Assembly (NCBI GenBank): GCA_017432445.1
Contig: JAFRJC010000137.1
Coordinates: 62,001-126,000, forward strand
DNA: 64,000 nucleotides
From: Eggerthellaceae bacterium
GTDB lineage: Bacteria > Actinomycetota > Coriobacteriia > Coriobacteriales > Eggerthellaceae
Direction: 5' to 3'
Of the stretch, positions 24,554 to 34,196 are shown piece by piece (position 1 is the stretch's first letter; each line of letters begins with the position of its first letter). The notes under the pieces were generated by a model, which was given only the letters and a program-made list of their open reading frames with translations, did no database searches and was not told the origin of the DNA. The translations under genes and the position numbers were made by a program.

Positions 24554-24829
24554 GCTCGTCAACCCTTTCGTGAGTGATTGATTCCCGATTATACCCCGCG
24601 GGCAATCGGTTATCCCGTTGGCAATCAGTTGCCCATGGGGTATTCGGTTGAGGATGGTTGTCAATCGAGGATTCCAGGTAAACAATCAATTAATCATTAT
24701 GCAGTTGGCGTGCGTTTTCTCGTTGGTTAAGAGCTGCGCGGTACAATGACACAGTTTTTGTAAATAACAGCGCGAAAGAGCCGAAAGCTGGTTTCGCGAG
24801 GACGGGTTTTGCAAGGAGCTGGGATAACC
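24554..24829. other. Intergenic region between dat and aspS
   Basis: A 276-bp, relatively AT-rich divergent spacer. It must hold both promoters; the TACAAT at 24,742-24,747 may be the aspS -10 box, but no good -35 is at the right distance. Two imperfect repeats around GGCAATC(G/A)GTT occur near 24,601-24,640. No gene. Confidence 0.35.
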
Positions 24830-26623
24830 ATGACGGAAATTGATTACAAGAACGAATATTGCATGCACACCGCCACCTGTGGCGAGCTGCGTATGGGCGA
24901 TTGCGGCCGCGAGGTAACGCTTACCGGCTGGGCGTGGCACAACCGCGATCATGGCGGGCTGATCTTCGTTGACCTGCGCGATCGCGCGGGTTACACGCAG
25001 GTGGTCGTCGACCCCGATTGCGTGACGCCTGAAGAGTTCGCCGTAGCCGAGCACTTCAGCCGCGAAGATGTACTCAAAATTAGCGGTAAGGTGCGCGAGC
25101 GTGGTCCCGAGGCCGTCAATCCCAACATGGTCACCGGCGAGATCGAGGTGCTGGCGAGCTCCATCGAGGTGTTGAACAAGTCCGTCACGCCGCCGTTCTC
25201 GATCGAAGACGGCATCGAGACTGATGAGACCACGCGCATGAAGTGGCGTTACCTCGATATCCGCCGTCCCGAGATGCTTGCCAACCTGAAACTGCGCCAC
25301 CAGGTGGTCACCGCCATGCGCGCGGCCCTGAACAAGCGCGATTTCCTGGAAATCGAGACCCCCATCCTTGCAAACTCCACGCCGGAAGGCGCGCGTGACT
25401 ACATCGTTCCCAGCCGCCCGAACCCCGGTAAGTTCTACGCGCTGCCGCAAAGTCCGCAGCAGTTCAAGCAGATGCTGATGGTGGGCGGCGTCGAGCGCTA
25501 CTACCAGATCGCCCGCTGCTTCCGCGACGAAGACTTGCGAGCCGACCGTCAGCCCGAGTTTACGCAGGTCGACATCGAAATGTCGTTCGTGCAGGGCGAT
25601 GACGTCATCGACATGATGGAAGACGTCATGCGCGAGACGCTCGAGGATGTGGGCGTCGAGCATCCCTTCCCGCTGCAGCGCATGCAGTATGCCGAGGCCA
25701 TGGACCGCTTCGGTTGCGATCGTCCCGACATTCGCTTCGGCATGGAGCTCGTAGACCTCACCGAGATCGTGCGTGGTTGCGGCTTCGCCGTGTTCGCCAA
25801 AGCAGTCGAAAACGGCGGAGTGGTGAAGGCCATCAACTGCAAGGGCGCGGGCAACTGGAGCCGCGGCGAAGTGGAGAAGCTGGGCGACCTGGCCGCCGAG
25901 AACGGCGCGAAGGGCATGGCCTGGATTGCCTTCACCAGCGAAGACGCAGAGCTTAAGGGCAAGAGCCCCATCATCAAGTTCTTCGAGGACGACGTGTACG
26001 CACGCTTGAAGGAAGCCATGGACGTGGAAGCCGGCGACCTCCTGCTGTTCGCGGCCGACAAGCCTGAAATCGCCAACACCGTGCTCGGCGCGCTGCGCCT
26101 GCGCATGGCCGATGCGCTCAATATCCCACGCGAGGGCCATGCGCTTCTGTGGGTCGTCATCTTCCCGATGTGCAGGTACGACGAGGAAGGGACAAAGTAC
26201 GCTGCCGAGCACCATCCGTGCACGAGGAGTCGCGAAGAGGACCAGGATAAAATCGAAGATGCGCCGCTCGAGTGCGGTAGCTACTCGTACGACTTGGTCA
26301 TGGACGGTTTCGAGGCTGGCGGTGGCACCATCCGTATCCATACCCCCGAACTGCAGCGCCGCGTGCTGCGCCGCTGCGGCCTGACCGACGAGCAGATCGA
26401 CGAGAAATTCGGCCACCTGATCCATGCGCTCGAGCTTGGTGCGCCCCCGCACGGCGGCATTGCACTCGGCCTCGACCGCCTGGTCATGCTGCTGGCAGGC
26501 AAGGATTCCATCCGCGACGTCATCGCCTTCCCGAAGACCAGCTCGGCATCTGACCCGATGACCGGCGCACCGTCGGAGGTCACCGAACGTCAGCTGAAGG
26601 AAGTCAGCCTGTGCCCGCTGTAA
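24830..26623 (+). CDS. aspS: Aspartyl-tRNA synthetase
   Basis: A 597-residue class II synthetase charging tRNA(Asp), possibly also tRNA(Asn). The OB-fold anticodon domain is residues 1-110, then motif 2 ([24 protein letters not shown]), the bacterial insertion domain, and motif 3 ([15 protein letters not shown]). The start is [15 protein letters not shown] after AAGGAG; TTG at 24,809 is rejected since the ribosome-binding site would be inside. It heads a cluster with gatCAB, suggesting linked Asp-tRNA(Asn) or Glu-tRNA(Gln) chemistry. Confidence 0.95.
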
Positions 26624-26646
26624 GAGCGCAGTTCTAGAACAAACGG

Positions 26647-26688
26647 AAAGAGCCCGGCAATGAGGATGCCCCCATTGCCGGGCTCTTT
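26647..26688 (+). terminator. Terminator of aspS
   Basis: Perfect 16-bp stem (26,647-26,662 with 26,673-26,688), 10-nt loop, ending in CTCTTT. The next genes (gatCAB) therefore need their own promoter; TACAAT at 26,692-26,697 may be its -10. Confidence 0.9.
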
Positions 26689-26737
26689 CGCTACAATACG
26701 ACCGTATGGAATCGAAGCTACGCGTAAAGGAGTGATA

Positions 26738-27019
26738 GTGGACCGAGACGCGCTTTTGGGCCTTGAAAGCTTAAACCAGCTGGCCCTGACCCCTGAAGAA
26801 CAAGATGAGATGCTGGCCTTCTTCGCCGCCCGAGAAGCAGATTGGGAATCATTGGCCCAGGTTGACACTGCGAACGTCGAGCGCATGGTCCATGTACGGC
26901 CCATGGTGAACGTGCTGCGGGAAGATGTCCCTTCGCAGCCGTTTTCGCGCGAGGACCTGCTCGCACAGGCGCCAGAGTCAATGGACGGGTACTGGCAAGT
27001 GCCTCGAGTCCTGCAGTAA
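26738..27019 (+). CDS. gatC: Aspartyl/glutamyl-tRNA amidotransferase subunit C
   Basis: A 93-residue small subunit that wraps GatA and GatB together. Start GTG at 26,738 (MDRDALLGLESLNQLALTPE), 5 nt after AAAGGAG. The N-terminal helix (LTPEEQDEMLAFF), the proline-linked loop (RPMVNVLREDV) and C-terminal SMDGYWQVPRVL match GatC. Length normal. Ten nucleotides before gatA. Confidence 0.88.
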   Translation: MDRDALLGLESLNQLALTPEEQDEMLAFFAAREADWESLAQVDTANVERMVHVRPMVNVLREDVPSQPFSREDLLAQAPESMDGYWQVPRVLQ

Positions 27020-27029
27020 GGAGGGCGTC

Positions 27030-28331
27030 ATGAGCGAAAACACCCTGTTCATCACAGAAAACTCCTGCAAGAAAACCGAAGGCGGATTCGACATCGGCCT
27101 TGACGATCTGGTTTTGACCCAGGATGCGGCCACTTCTGCCGGATCGAAGATGCTGGCCGGATTCAAGAGCCTGTTCGAAGCCCGAATTGTCGAGCGCCTT
27201 CGCGAGGCCGGCTACGACATCGCCGGAAAGGTGAACATCGGCGAATTCGGTTTCGATTTCCTAGGCGAATCATCCTATTTCGGTCCCGTAATCGATGCGG
27301 ACGGGCATCTCGTCACTGCCACTGCCAAGCTGCTCGGGGATTCAAGCGTAGATGCCGTGGTTGGTCTCGATGTGAACGGTGCGCAGGCGCGTGCGGCATC
27401 GCTTTCCGGACAAGTTCACCTGAAACCCACCTATGGCTGCGTATCCCGGTTCGGTACCGTAGCGATAGCCTGTTCTGGCGAAACCGTTGACATCACCGCC
27501 CGCTCGACAAAGGACGTCCAGCAAGTGCTGGACGTGCTGGCCGGTCACGATGACGCTGATGGCACGTCCCTTCCCGCAAGCGAATGCGCCCGGTTGACCA
27601 CTGCCGGTTTTGCGGAAGCCGTCGGAGCGGGTGAAGCGTTCGCCGCACCCATCACGCACGTGAAAGTGGCGCGCGGTTTGATGAATTCCGCCGATGCGGA
27701 CACCAAGCAGCTCATGGAGGCCGCCATCCAGACCTTGAGTTCGGAAGGCATCGGCGTCACGGATACAGCTTCGGAAACCGACGACCTCTTCGCCGTGGCT
27801 AACCTGGCCTGGAATATCCTCATGTGCGCGGAGCTCTGCAACAACGTGAATCGTTTCGAAGGCATGAAATACGGCTACCACACCGAGAAATACCAGACCA
27901 TCGACGAGCTCTACACCAAATCACGTACGGAGGCCTTCGGTTACCTTACCAAGGTCGCTATCCTGTACGGGTCCGAAGTGCTGGCCACGGGTAACTACGA
28001 GCGCTGCTACGACAAGGCGTTGCGCATCCGCCGCCTCGTTTCGGAGGCCTTCGCGAGCGAATTCGCACAGGGAGCCTCGGCTGGCAATGCCGCCGGCCAG
28101 ACCGCGATCCTTCTACCCGCCTGCGCCAAACGTGCCTACAGCCTTGCCGATGTGGAGGCAAACCCCTACCTGGCCTTCGAAGAGAACCGCTTCACCGCCC
28201 CCGCCGCAATCACCGGCCTGCCGGCGCTCACCGCAGGCGGCGTGCAGCTGGTCGGACCGGCGTTCTCGGACGTCGCCTTGCTGCGCCTCGCCGATATCTT
28301 GACTGCCGATTGCGCTGGAAAGGAGGCCTAA
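27030..28331 (+). CDS. gatA: GatA-like amidotransferase subunit lacking the amidase catalytic triad
   Basis: A 433-residue relative of the glutaminase subunit of GatCAB (usual length about 485). The fold is recognisable: ASKML-like GSKMLAGF, GKVNIGEFGF, LKPTYGCVSRFGTVAIA, RFEGMKYGYHTEKYQTIDEL and TGLPALTAGG. The catalytic Lys of GIKDN is replaced in IGLDD. The glycine-serine GGSSGGSA motif with the cis-Ser is absent (VTATAKLLGDSS occupies it), and the nucleophile Ser of DTGGS becomes Ala in DVNGA. The N-terminal about 60 residues are also missing. No glutamine hydrolysis is expected. Reading frame intact between normal gatC and gatB. Confidence 0.9.
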   Translation: MSENTLFITENSCKKTEGGFDIGLDDLVLTQDAATSAGSKMLAGFKSLFEARIVERLREAGYDIAGKVNIGEFGFDFLGESSYFGPVIDADGHLVTATAKLLGDSSVDAVVGLDVNGAQARAASLSGQVHLKPTYGCVSRFGTVAIACSGETVDITARSTKDVQQVLDVLAGHDDADGTSLPASECARLTTAGFAEAVGAGEAFAAPITHVKVARGLMNSADADTKQLMEAAIQTLSSEGIGVTDTASETDDLFAVANLAWNILMCAELCNNVNRFEGMKYGYHTEKYQTIDELYTKSRTEAFGYLTKVAILYGSEVLATGNYERCYDKALRIRRLVSEAFASEFAQGASAGNAAGQTAILLPACAKRAYSLADVEANPYLAFEENRFTAPAAITGLPALTAGGVQLVGPAFSDVALLRLADILTADCAGKEA

Positions 28332-28333
28332 GC

Positions 28334-29791
28334 ATGACCGCTTACGAAACCGTCATCGGTCTTGAGGTCCACGTGGAGCTGGCCACCAAGTCAAAGATCT
28401 TCTGCTCCTGCACAAACGGCAGTGATGCCGAGCCCAACACCCATGTATGCCCTGCCTGCTGCGGTATGCCGGGCATGCTTCCCGTTGCAAACCGTCAAGT
28501 CATCAACCTCGGCATGACTGCGGGAATGATGCTCAACTGCCACATCAACCGAACCACCACGTTCGACAAGAAAAGCTATTACTACCCCGACCTGCCGGCT
28601 TCCTATCAAACCACCCAGTGGTTTGCGCCCATCGCGGTGAACGGCTACGTGACCATCCAGACGGAAGATGGCCCCAAGGACATCCGCGTCAAGCAGATTC
28701 ACATGGAAGAGGATGCGGGCAAGCTGGTCCACGACAACTGGAGCTACACCACGCTGGTGGATTTCAACCGTACCAGCGTGCCCCTGATCGAGATCGTGAG
28801 CCAGCCTGATTTGCGCAGCGCCGATGAGGTGGTGGCATATCTGGAGCGCCTGCGGAGCCTGCTGAGGTTTGCAAAGGTGTCGGGCGCCCGCATGGAGAAG
28901 GGCACTATGCGCGCCGACGTGAACCTGTCGGTGCGTCCTGCAGGAAGCGATGTGCTAGGCGTGCGCACGGAGATGAAGAACATGGCCTCCATCGCAGCCA
29001 TCAGGCGGGCTATCGAATACGAGACCGCCCGCCATATCGACGCCATCGAAAACGGCATCGAGGAGCTTGTGCAAGAAACTCGTGGTTGGGATGACGATGC
29101 TGGCAAGTCTTTCGCAATGCGGAACAAGGAAACCGCAGGCGACTATCGGTACTTCCCGGATCCCAACATCATGCCCGTGGTTATCGACGACGAGTGGTAT
29201 GACCGTATTCGCGAGAGCTTGCCCGAGCTTCCGGAGGTGAAGTTGGAGCGCTATGTGGCGCAAGTAGGCCTTTCCGACTACGATGCTGGCATCCTTGCCC
29301 AGAGCCGTGCCTTCTGCGATTGCTTTGAAGGGGCTATGGCTGTCGGAGCCGCACCCAAAGAGGCTGCCAACTGGATCATCACCAACTGCACGGGTATCCT
29401 CAACAAACGAGGGCTGACTTCGGAAGACCTGCCAGTGCCGGGCAAGGCTCTGGGGCAGCTCATCGGCTTGGTAAACGATGGAAAGGTGAGCAGCGCTAAC
29501 GGCAAGCGTCTGCTAGAAACCCTGTTCGACTTGGATTCTCGGGGCGAGGACATCCCGGAAGACATGGTCGCCTTCGCCGAAGCCGAAGGGCTTGTGAATT
29601 CGTCGGACACCGGAGCTCTGGAAGCCGTGGTGGCAGCCGTCATCGCCGCCGATCCTGAGACTGCACAAGCATATCGGGACGGCCGTGAGAAGGCTTTGAA
29701 CCCGCTGTTCGGCGCCTGCATGAAGCAGCTCAAAGGTAAATGCGACACGCAGGTCCTCCGCAGCCTTTTGATTGCAGAGTTGAGCAAATAG
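28334..29791 (+). CDS. gatB: Aspartyl/glutamyl-tRNA amidotransferase subunit B
   Basis: A 485-residue ATP-dependent kinase/transamidase subunit. It has ETVIGLEVHVELATKSKIFC, the zinc-type Cys set (CSC...CPACCGMPGMLPVAN), FDKKSYYYPDLPASYQTTQW and the KQIHMEEDAGKLVHD motif of the phosphorylation/ammonia site. The GatB/YqeY tail domain is at the C-terminus. Complete and with no lost motif visible. Starts 2 nt after gatA, so translationally coupled. Confidence 0.95.
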   Translation: MTAYETVIGLEVHVELATKSKIFCSCTNGSDAEPNTHVCPACCGMPGMLPVANRQVINLGMTAGMMLNCHINRTTTFDKKSYYYPDLPASYQTTQWFAPIAVNGYVTIQTEDGPKDIRVKQIHMEEDAGKLVHDNWSYTTLVDFNRTSVPLIEIVSQPDLRSADEVVAYLERLRSLLRFAKVSGARMEKGTMRADVNLSVRPAGSDVLGVRTEMKNMASIAAIRRAIEYETARHIDAIENGIEELVQETRGWDDDAGKSFAMRNKETAGDYRYFPDPNIMPVVIDDEWYDRIRESLPELPEVKLERYVAQVGLSDYDAGILAQSRAFCDCFEGAMAVGAAPKEAANWIITNCTGILNKRGLTSEDLPVPGKALGQLIGLVNDGKVSSANGKRLLETLFDLDSRGEDIPEDMVAFAEAEGLVNSSDTGALEAVVAAVIAADPETAQAYRDGREKALNPLFGACMKQLKGKCDTQVLRSLLIAELSK

Positions 29792-31683: not shown

Positions 31684-32493
31684 GTGATTGTCATCGGCGA
31701 GAAGATTAATGGTTCCATTCCCAAAACCGGCAAAGCCATTGCAGAGCGTGACGAAGAGTACATCCGCATGCTGGCCCGCACCCAGACCGAGGCTGGTGCC
31801 ACCTACATCGACTGCTGCGCATCGGTGAACGAGGGCGAACTCGAGACCCAGGAATGGCTCATCGGCCTGATCATGGAAGAGTCCGACCTGCCTATCGCCA
31901 TCGATAGCCCCGATCCCCAGGTGTGCGTCGACGCCATGAAGTTCTGCGGCGACCGCGTTGGTCTGATCAACTCCGTCTCCGGCGAGGGCAACAAGATGGA
32001 CATCGTGTTCCCGGTTATCGCCGACACCAAGTGGGGCTGCGTGGCTCTGCTCTCCGACGACTCTGGCATTCCGCCTACTGCTGAGGGCCGTATCGCCGTA
32101 TTCGAGAAGATCATGGCAAAGGCCACGGAATATGGCATTACTCCTGATCGTCTGTACATCGACCCGCTAGTCGAAACGCTGGGCGCCAACGAGGAAAGCC
32201 TCCTCACCTTCAATGCATGCGTCAAGGCTATCAAGGAAAAGTATCCGACCATCCACATCACCTCGGGCCTGTCCAACATCTCGTTCGGTCTCCCCAGCCG
32301 CAAGCACATCAACATGCCGTTCCTGGTTCTGGCTATGCAGGCTGGTATGGACTCCGCCATCATGGACCCGACGAACCGCGACATGAACGGCGTTATGCAC
32401 GCCACCGCCGCCCTTCTCGGCGAAGACGATTTCTGCCTCGAATACATCGAAGCGTATCGCGACAACCTGTTCGGCCCCATTGACCGCGACTAG
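31684..32493 (+). CDS. Methyltetrahydrofolate:corrinoid methyltransferase (MT-II)
   Basis: A 269-residue TIM-barrel enzyme of the DHPS-like AcsE/MtgA/MetH-domain family. It moves a methyl group between a corrinoid protein and tetrahydrofolate. Key parts are IVIGEKINGSIPKTG, the pterin-binding GATYIDCCASVNEGE, INSVSGE and the hallmark SGLSNISFGLPSRK near residues 195-208. Start GTG after AAGGAGG. Immediately followed by the terminator and the reductive activator gene. It is probably the common methyl exit for all three MT-I enzymes of the window. Confidence 0.9.
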   Translation: MIVIGEKINGSIPKTGKAIAERDEEYIRMLARTQTEAGATYIDCCASVNEGELETQEWLIGLIMEESDLPIAIDSPDPQVCVDAMKFCGDRVGLINSVSGEGNKMDIVFPVIADTKWGCVALLSDDSGIPPTAEGRIAVFEKIMAKATEYGITPDRLYIDPLVETLGANEESLLTFNACVKAIKEKYPTIHITSGLSNISFGLPSRKHINMPFLVLAMQAGMDSAIMDPTNRDMNGVMHATAALLGEDDFCLEYIEAYRDNLFGPIDRD

Positions 32494-32506
32494 TTATTGT
32501 GATTGC

Positions 32507-32537
32507 AAAAACGGCGGGCGATACGCCCGCCGTTTTT
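32507..32537 (+). terminator. Terminator after MT-II
   Basis: AAAAACGGCGGGCG (32,507-32,520) pairs with CGCCCGCCGTTTTT (32,524-32,537), loop ATA, then TT. Confidence 0.93.
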
Positions 32538-32693
32538 TTGTATGCGCAAAGCCGTTTGTTCTTAGGAAACGATTGCGTGTGTCCTTTCGGCGTTCAAGTA
32601 TGTTCGAAAGCTGATGCGCGCTCTCGAACCCAGATGATAATTGCTATAGTCGCAGTTAGCAAAATGCGGGTGGAATCGAAGGAGGCATTCACA

Positions 32694-34196
32694 GTGAAGA
32701 TTCTCATTGATGACGCGGGCAAGCGAATTGCAGCTGAGGCCCAGGAGGGGCAAACCGTTCTCGACGTGCTGCAACGCGAGCGTATCGACATTCAGGCCAC
32801 CTGCGGAGGCGTGGGAAAATGCGGCCGCTGCCAGGTGCTCGTGCGTGACGAAGAAGGCTTGAGCTATCGCCTTGCCTGCACGACTCCGGTAAGCGATGAG
32901 ATGGAAGTGGTTGTGGAGCATGCGGGTGCCATGGAGGTGCTGCAGAGTGGCACGACGAGCGTTTTCCCGCCCGATGAGGGAGCGAGCGGATATGGCATCG
33001 CAATCGATATCGGAACCACAACGGTGGTTGCTCATCTGCACGATCTTGCGACAGGCGAACGCCTGGCAACTGTGGGCCGCCCCAATCCCCAGATAGCTTT
33101 CGGCAGTGACGTCATCAGTCGTATTTCCGCCAGCGTTGACGGTAAGCTCGACCTCATGACCGGCGTTATCCAGGATGCCTTGCGCGAGATGAAGGCTAAG
33201 CTGTGCAAAACGGCCAAGATTTCGCCCGATGAAGTTAAGAAAGCCACGATTGCCGGCAACACAGTCATGCAGCACATTGCCATGGGGTTGCCTCCTGACT
33301 CCATCGGCGGCGCTCCTTTCACGCCGCTTTCGCTGTTCGGCGATACGTGGGAGATCGAGGGTCTGGGTTCGTGCTACCTGACGCGTTGTATTGCCGGTTA
33401 TGTGGGAGGCGACATCACGGCAGGCATGCTGGCAACCACGATAGACGCTCCGGGTACCCATCTGTTCTTGGACCTGGGTACTAACGGCGAAATGGCGCTT
33501 TCTCGTGATGGGAACATCGTCAGCTGCGCCACGGCTGCCGGCCCCGTGTTCGAAGGTGCCAACGTGCATTTCGGCATGCCGGCTTCTCCCGGCGCCATCT
33601 CGAAGGTCTCGTATGAAGACGGCCAGGTGAAATTGCAGGTCATAGGTGATGTCGATCCCATCGGCGTATGCGGTACGGGCCTCATCGATGCAATCGCGCT
33701 CATGCTTCGCCTGGGGGTGGTCGAGGATTCGGGCCGTTTTGCGGATGAAGAAGACCTTGACGAGCCGTTGCGTAGCTGGTGCGGAGAAGAGGGAGGCCGT
33801 GGCGCCTTCTACCTGACGCCCGACCATTCGCTCTACATCACGCAAGCTGACGTGCGCAATCTGCAGCTGGCGAAGGCCGCGGTGTGCGCAGGTATCATGA
33901 CCATGCTCGACCATATCGGCATCGAAGCATCCGATATCGACTCGCTCGAAATAGCCGGCGGTTTCGGCGCCTACCTCAACCTCGGGTCGGCTGCTCTTGT
34001 CGGCTTGTTCCCCGAAGAGCTACTTCCCGTCGCCAAGAGCGTTGGCAACACTTCGGGCGAGGGGGCAACTGCCCTGCTCGTGTCCAGCGCGGCGCGCGAA
34101 CGAGAGGCCGAAATCGTGTCGAAGTGCGAATACATAGAGCTTTCGACTTCAATGACCTTCAACCAGCTGTATGTCAAGATGATGGGTTTCGCGTAG
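32694..34196 (+). CDS. RamA-like corrinoid reductive activase (2Fe-2S + ASKHA/DUF4445)
   Basis: 500 residues from GTG 32,694 (MKILIDDAGKRIAAEA) after GAAGGAGG. The N-terminal ferredoxin domain has CGGVGKCGRC and a later LAC (C-x5-C-x2-C...C) for a 2Fe-2S cluster. The rest is an ASKHA-fold ATPase-like DUF4445 with GIAIDIGTTTVVAHL, HLFLDLGTNGEMAL and EIAGGFGAYLNLG. It re-reduces Co(II) to Co(I) on the corrinoid protein, using ATP. No C-terminal methanogen-type 4Fe-4S extension is seen. Confidence 0.93.
   Translation: MKILIDDAGKRIAAEAQEGQTVLDVLQRERIDIQATCGGVGKCGRCQVLVRDEEGLSYRLACTTPVSDEMEVVVEHAGAMEVLQSGTTSVFPPDEGASGYGIAIDIGTTTVVAHLHDLATGERLATVGRPNPQIAFGSDVISRISASVDGKLDLMTGVIQDALREMKAKLCKTAKISPDEVKKATIAGNTVMQHIAMGLPPDSIGGAPFTPLSLFGDTWEIEGLGSCYLTRCIAGYVGGDITAGMLATTIDAPGTHLFLDLGTNGEMALSRDGNIVSCATAAGPVFEGANVHFGMPASPGAISKVSYEDGQVKLQVIGDVDPIGVCGTGLIDAIALMLRLGVVEDSGRFADEEDLDEPLRSWCGEEGGRGAFYLTPDHSLYITQADVRNLQLAKAAVCAGIMTMLDHIGIEASDIDSLEIAGGFGAYLNLGSAALVGLFPEELLPVAKSVGNTSGEGATALLVSSAAREREAEIVSKCEYIELSTSMTFNQLYVKMMGFA

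Follow-up and report, generated by a model that had tools for sequence, protein, structure and literature searches.

The question raised by this locus is why a bacterium would keep a GatA subunit that appears to have lost its glutaminase, since GatCAB is usually viewed as glutamine-dependent and GatA as its conserved glutaminase. We refer to the gene as gatA*, to the GatB encoded with it as GatB*, and to the whole 64,000-nucleotide stretch of Eggerthellaceae DNA that was analysed as the window. The explanation that we favor, with a probability of roughly 60%, is that gatC-gatA*-gatB encodes a dedicated Asp-tRNA(Asn) amidotransferase that does not hydrolyze glutamine, takes ammonia from outside and keeps GatA* as a scaffold, and that the host of the window acquired it as an additional complex, next to a canonical GatCAB.

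Organization of the aspS-gatCA*B locus

All four genes of the locus lie on the forward strand. The first, aspS (24809..26623), encodes an AspRS (704.6 bits to NCBIfam aspS_bact, cut-off 373.9); no other AspRS was found in the genome, in which the PF00152 matches were limited to this gene and one LysRS-like gene. It is followed by gatC (26738..27019; 66.4 bits to TIGR00135, cut-off 47.1), for which the GTG at 26738, preceded by AAAGGAG, is more probably the start codon than position 26660, where a longer open reading frame begins; the TIGR00135 match begins at residue 27 of that longer frame. The gatA* gene (27030..28331) is an intact frame of 433 codons for a GatA-fold subunit without the glutamine site, and gatB (28334..29791; 503 bits to TIGR00133, cut-off 314.8) retains its kinase/amidotransferase and YqeY domains. 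The original prediction that an intact gatA frame is placed between normal gatC and gatB genes was thus confirmed. The gaps are 10 nt between gatC and gatA* and 2 nt between gatA* and gatB, and a Shine-Dalgarno-like sequence precedes each gene. In the window, aspS and gatC may be separate transcripts rather than co-transcribed, because a very stable hairpin lies between them (26646..26689; -36.6 kcal/mol, z -7.8), which resembles a terminator on the minus strand. Downstream of the operon, at 31684-34196, are genes for a putative methyltetrahydrofolate methyltransferase and a putative corrinoid-activating iron-sulfur protein, as judged from their sequences.

The active site of GatA*

We compared the active site by a profile HMM match to the 2df4 and 4wj3 structures and by a MAFFT alignment with 21 canonical GatA proteins; both methods agree. 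Reference positions K79, S178, R358 and D425 are those of S. aureus GatA, in which we take R358 and D425 to be glutamine-binding residues. In the GatA* of the window, K79 is replaced by D25, S178 by A118, R358 by A310 and D425 by N386, and the loop that carries the cis-Ser is shortened. The predicted loss of all three catalytic residues therefore stands, with corrections to its details. The lysine is gone as proposed, but its column is occupied by the first Asp of the LDD motif and not by the Leu with which it had been aligned. The cis-Ser motif was thought to be replaced; it is absent, and the loop is also at least 6 residues shorter. The change of the nucleophile from Ser to Ala is correct for the window but is not general in the family. 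The loss of both glutamine-binding residues goes beyond what had been listed, and the missing N-terminal section was verified, with about 55 residues gone and the profile match starting at position 52 of 445. Catalytic residues that are shifted but present were rejected by the two alignment methods together with the fold match.

The same pattern runs through 39 GatA* homologues. The K79 column holds Asp in 35 and Glu in 4. No member has a Ser in the cis-Ser column, and the loop is at least 6 residues shorter in nearly all. R358 is replaced in every one (by Ala, Val, Thr, Ile or Cys), as is D425 in all 38 that have a residue there (Asn, Ser, Gly or Arg). The S178 column is the variable one, with Ala in 20, Ser in 11, Thr in 5 and other residues in 3; in the 11 with Ser, the catalytic partners are gone. 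Overall, GatA* keeps 35 of the 103 columns that are invariant in canonical GatA, and GatB* keeps 76 of 101 such positions, with mostly conservative losses. A less degenerate relative of 419 amino acids (L234:3032-4192, minus strand) carries the motifs SGGAATA and DSDGSARR and has already lost K79, R358 and D425; judged by these motifs, it is possibly an evolutionary intermediate.

These data bear on the possibility that GatA* has rebuilt an amidase site and that the complex still generates its own ammonia, from glutamine or a different amide. GatA* is strongly conserved with invariant residues of its own, a Ser is present at the old nucleophile position in the 11 homologues mentioned, and Cys148 is common (27 of 29 members in one comparison, with more exceptions among further loci). 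However, the residue at K79 is always acidic, both glutamine-binding residues are gone, and Cys148 is not invariant, so it was rejected as a shared catalytic residue and no shared new nucleophile was seen. We regard a rebuilt site as very unlikely.

Fold and selection

GatA* scores 128.5 bits against Pfam Amidase and 197 bits against the TIGR00132 gatA equivalog model, below its cut-off of 481.1. Its AlphaFold model (pLDDT 85.9, pTM 0.89) has the amidase-signature fold and matches GatA chains with Z of about 41-45 (4n0i_A, Z 44.7; 2df4_A, Z 43.3; about 393 residues), in keeping with the prediction that landmarks of the GatA fold remain. Between genomes of the host's genus, the dN/dS of gatA* is 0.10-0.14, indicating strong purifying selection. 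Because the active site is lost while the fold and this constraint are kept, the sequences point to GatA* being a maintained pseudo-amidase.

An ordinary decaying gene, or an artefact of assembly or binning, would be another account of a degenerate GatA. The genomes are fragmented, that of the window has 4.81% contamination, and in a red-deer Eggerthellaceae contig gatA* is split over two frames (L053:10001-11256), by a frameshift or a sequencing error in the deposited sequence. Against this are the 39 intact homologues from many genomes, the dN/dS of about 0.1 and the conserved operon, on which we rejected a decaying pseudogene. Contamination is likewise an unlikely source of the window, as the AspRS from this contig and those from other genomes of the genus share 91-97% identity. 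Altogether, we give this explanation almost no credence.

Distribution and linkage to AspRS

Besides the genome of the window, 6 of 60 relatives carry gatA*: three of the same genus, two of the family and one of the order. A scan of GTDB genomes recovered 23 gatA* loci, mostly from Clostridia or Oscillospiraceae of ruminant and horse guts and including one from an uncultured Eggerthellaceae bacterium. Among 394 genomes of the order of one carrier (G071), 17 exceed 400 bits, followed by a drop to 311 bits. The GatB proteins of the gatA* family form one clade with a support of 1.0. All carriers found are uncultured, with incomplete genomes.

The predicted tie of this GatCAB to AspRS was borne out, with aspS adjoining in the window and in most loci of the family: it precedes gatC in 20 of the 23 loci and in 10 of 10 further loci, and in the related loci, as in the window, gatA* is encoded between gatC and gatB. 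In 12 of the 33 loci, aspS and gatC are a single reading frame, and the three fused proteins that we tested contain AspRS and GatC domains by Pfam. In the Clostridia loci, the AspRS encoded with the operon has RDHGG in its anticodon-binding domain, and RDLG predominates in the free-standing AspRS of these Clostridia. His rather than Leu at this position is presumably the mark of a non-discriminating AspRS that recognizes tRNA(Asn). On this motif, the operon AspRS would be a second AspRS of the non-discriminating type in Clostridia, and is predicted to charge tRNA(Asn). The AspRS of the window also has RDHGG. Beyond the identity to its own genus, it is 77% identical to the AspRS of G027 and about 40% identical to the operon type of Clostridia. 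It is thus of the Eggerthellaceae type, and gatCA*B has therefore been placed beside a different aspS, which makes an independent link to AspRS.

A canonical GatA in the host of the window

A cell relying on a glutaminase-free GatCAB, as originally envisaged, does not describe this host. Its genome contains a second, full-length and canonical gatA (G000:C175:8421-9755; 470.8 bits) with a second gatB adjoining, and with this pair the host does not need a glutaminase-free GatCAB to make Gln-tRNA. A second gatA was one of two findings named at the outset that would speak against the proposal, the other being catalytic residues that had merely shifted. The canonical GatCAB presumably handles Glu-tRNA(Gln). 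It could also carry out both reactions, in which case gatCA*B may be dispensable or have another role. An AsnRS over the cut-off is absent from 48 of 61 relatives of the host, most of which also lack gatA*; the canonical GatCAB alone can therefore evidently suffice in Eggerthellaceae, and gatCA*B is an addition.

GlnRS and AsnRS in gatA* carriers

Amidase-family matches are limited to GatA* in 21 Clostridia genomes. The notion of a cell with no working glutaminase GatA, which fails for the host of the window, holds for these genomes, where the dead GatA is the only one. We examined 30 genomes for GlnRS and AsnRS. GlnRS over the cut-off was found in 20 of these 21 (the exception is G063), and the other nine all lack it. 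AsnRS over the curated cut-off was found only in G070 and G072 and not in the other 28 of the 30, the genome of the window included; 19 of the 21 lack it. AsnB over the cut-off was absent from half of the 30. Single gene absences in the Clostridia carriers prove little because the completeness of those genomes is not given. One genome with GatA* and GlnRS (G066) has an AsnRS-like frame at C41:3293-4549 that scores 231.8 bits, below the asnS cut-off. The overall pattern fits the formation of Gln-tRNA by GlnRS, or by the canonical GatCAB where present, and of Asn-tRNA by AspRS and GatCA*B.

This distribution also weighs on a role for GatCA*B outside translation, either in a tRNA-dependent pathway for which it would place a different amide or amine on Asp-tRNA, or in the regulation of AspRS. 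Such a role would agree with the uniform changes of GatB* at otherwise invariant positions (R79K, G148S, T210V, Q234H and D278N) and with the presence of a canonical GatCAB in the genome of the window. We nevertheless consider it quite unlikely: the 19 Clostridia genomes have no AsnRS over the cut-off and no other GatA, leaving GatCA*B as the sole candidate found for Asn-tRNA, and no biosynthetic neighbor recurs at the loci.

Proposed mechanism and source of ammonia

We propose that a non-discriminating AspRS charges tRNA(Asn) with Asp, and that GatB would then activate the side-chain carboxylate with ATP and amidate it. GatA* would have lost glutamine hydrolysis and serve as a structural partner, a scaffold for GatB and GatC and probably the path of entry for ammonia. 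The nitrogen would be ammonia made outside the complex, either free NH3/NH4+, which is plentiful in the gut, or the product of another enzyme. In the Clostridia carriers, GatCA*B would probably be the only route to Asn-tRNA, with GlnRS making Gln-tRNA. The substrate, the ammonia donor and the scaffold role are our reading of sequence and gene context, which support the earlier proposal that a complex that lost its glutaminase and kept the gene would need ammonia from elsewhere. When its glutaminase step is bypassed, GatFAB can use NH4Cl for transamidation (PMC4027206). We speculate that the constant Asp or Glu at the K79 position helps to admit ammonium. A search of open-access papers turned up no description of a GatA with a dead glutaminase.

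A dedicated source of ammonia is conceivable. In 7 of the 23 loci and 4 of the 10 further loci (11 of 33), aspS-gatC-gatA*-gatB is accompanied at a distance of up to about 10 kb by an asparaginase-family gene (L039:6418-7506, L044:10890-11945, L057:12630-13655, L239:7752-8735 and others), which is directly behind gatB in L044, L235 and L239. Most of these neighbors keep TGGT and HGTDT, and they match GatD models and GatD chains. A partner amidase of this kind could dock on GatA* and feed the Asp-tRNA(Asn) amidotransferase, as GatD feeds GatE in archaea. The gene is missing from two thirds of the loci, however, and the genome of the window yielded only a fragment match of 35 bits; we rejected it as a general ammonia source. 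Where the P. horikoshii enzyme has its catalytic Lys, none of these neighbors has a Lys, which is uninformative because other clostridial relatives lack this Lys too. A docked partner amidase is unlikely as the general explanation, and the asparaginase-family neighbor could supply ammonia in some lineages.

Bacterial GatCAB recognizes tRNA(Asn) by the U1-A72 pair, which is present in all 98 surveyed genera with GlnRS and GatCAB (PMC4206432, PMC9976931). In the few genomes that we checked, tRNA(Asn) has U1-A72 in G000, G062, G067, G077 and G079 and G1-C72 in G071, G072 and G080. The latter three all have the fused AspRS-GatC, and G072 also has an AsnRS. The loci recorded for G1-C72 in these three genomes are L048:5-80, where the tRNA gene is about 2.7 kb upstream of the operon, L210, L211, L212 and L233. 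A broader and more tentative scenario, which we place somewhat short of an even chance, is that a lineage of gut Clostridia makes all of its Asn-tRNA with a glutamine-independent transamidosome of AspRS and GatC (partly fused), a dead GatA and GatB, running on ammonia that is free or comes from the asparaginase-like partner. The fused clade would no longer need U1-A72 as the fused AspRS delivers the tRNA, and the module would have spread to Eggerthellaceae as a second amidotransferase.

Comparison with known systems

If the favored explanation is true, the translation of asparagine codons would be tied directly to ammonia, and GatCA*B would be a natural system for studying GatA as scaffold and ammonia channel apart from its catalysis. 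Annotation rules by which every GatA-like protein is scored as an active glutaminase would fail, and the AspRS-GatC fusions would be a transamidosome made covalent.

GatCA*B resembles the GatCAB of S. aureus (2df4) and the asparagine transamidosome (4wj3, 3kfu) in its three subunits, the GatA fold (Z about 43) and the link to AspRS. The GatB and GatC of the window score above their family cut-offs, whereas GatA* lacks the Ser-cisSer-Lys site, the glutamine-binding residues and the N-terminal 55 or so residues. The asparaginase-family protein beside some loci resembles the GatD of archaeal GatDE; GatA*, in contrast, has the amidase-signature fold, and most loci, as well as the window, lack the asparaginase-like gene. 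The bifunctional AspRS/GatC PRK12820 (NCBIfam NF009460) is the same fusion as in the fused loci, although the fused protein of L057 scores 426 bits against a model cut-off of 1379. Mammalian carbamoyl phosphate synthetase 1 likewise retains an inactive glutaminase domain and takes ammonia from its environment (PMC4655335); its fold and reaction are unrelated to those of GatCA*B, and the likeness is an analogy of mechanism, not homology.
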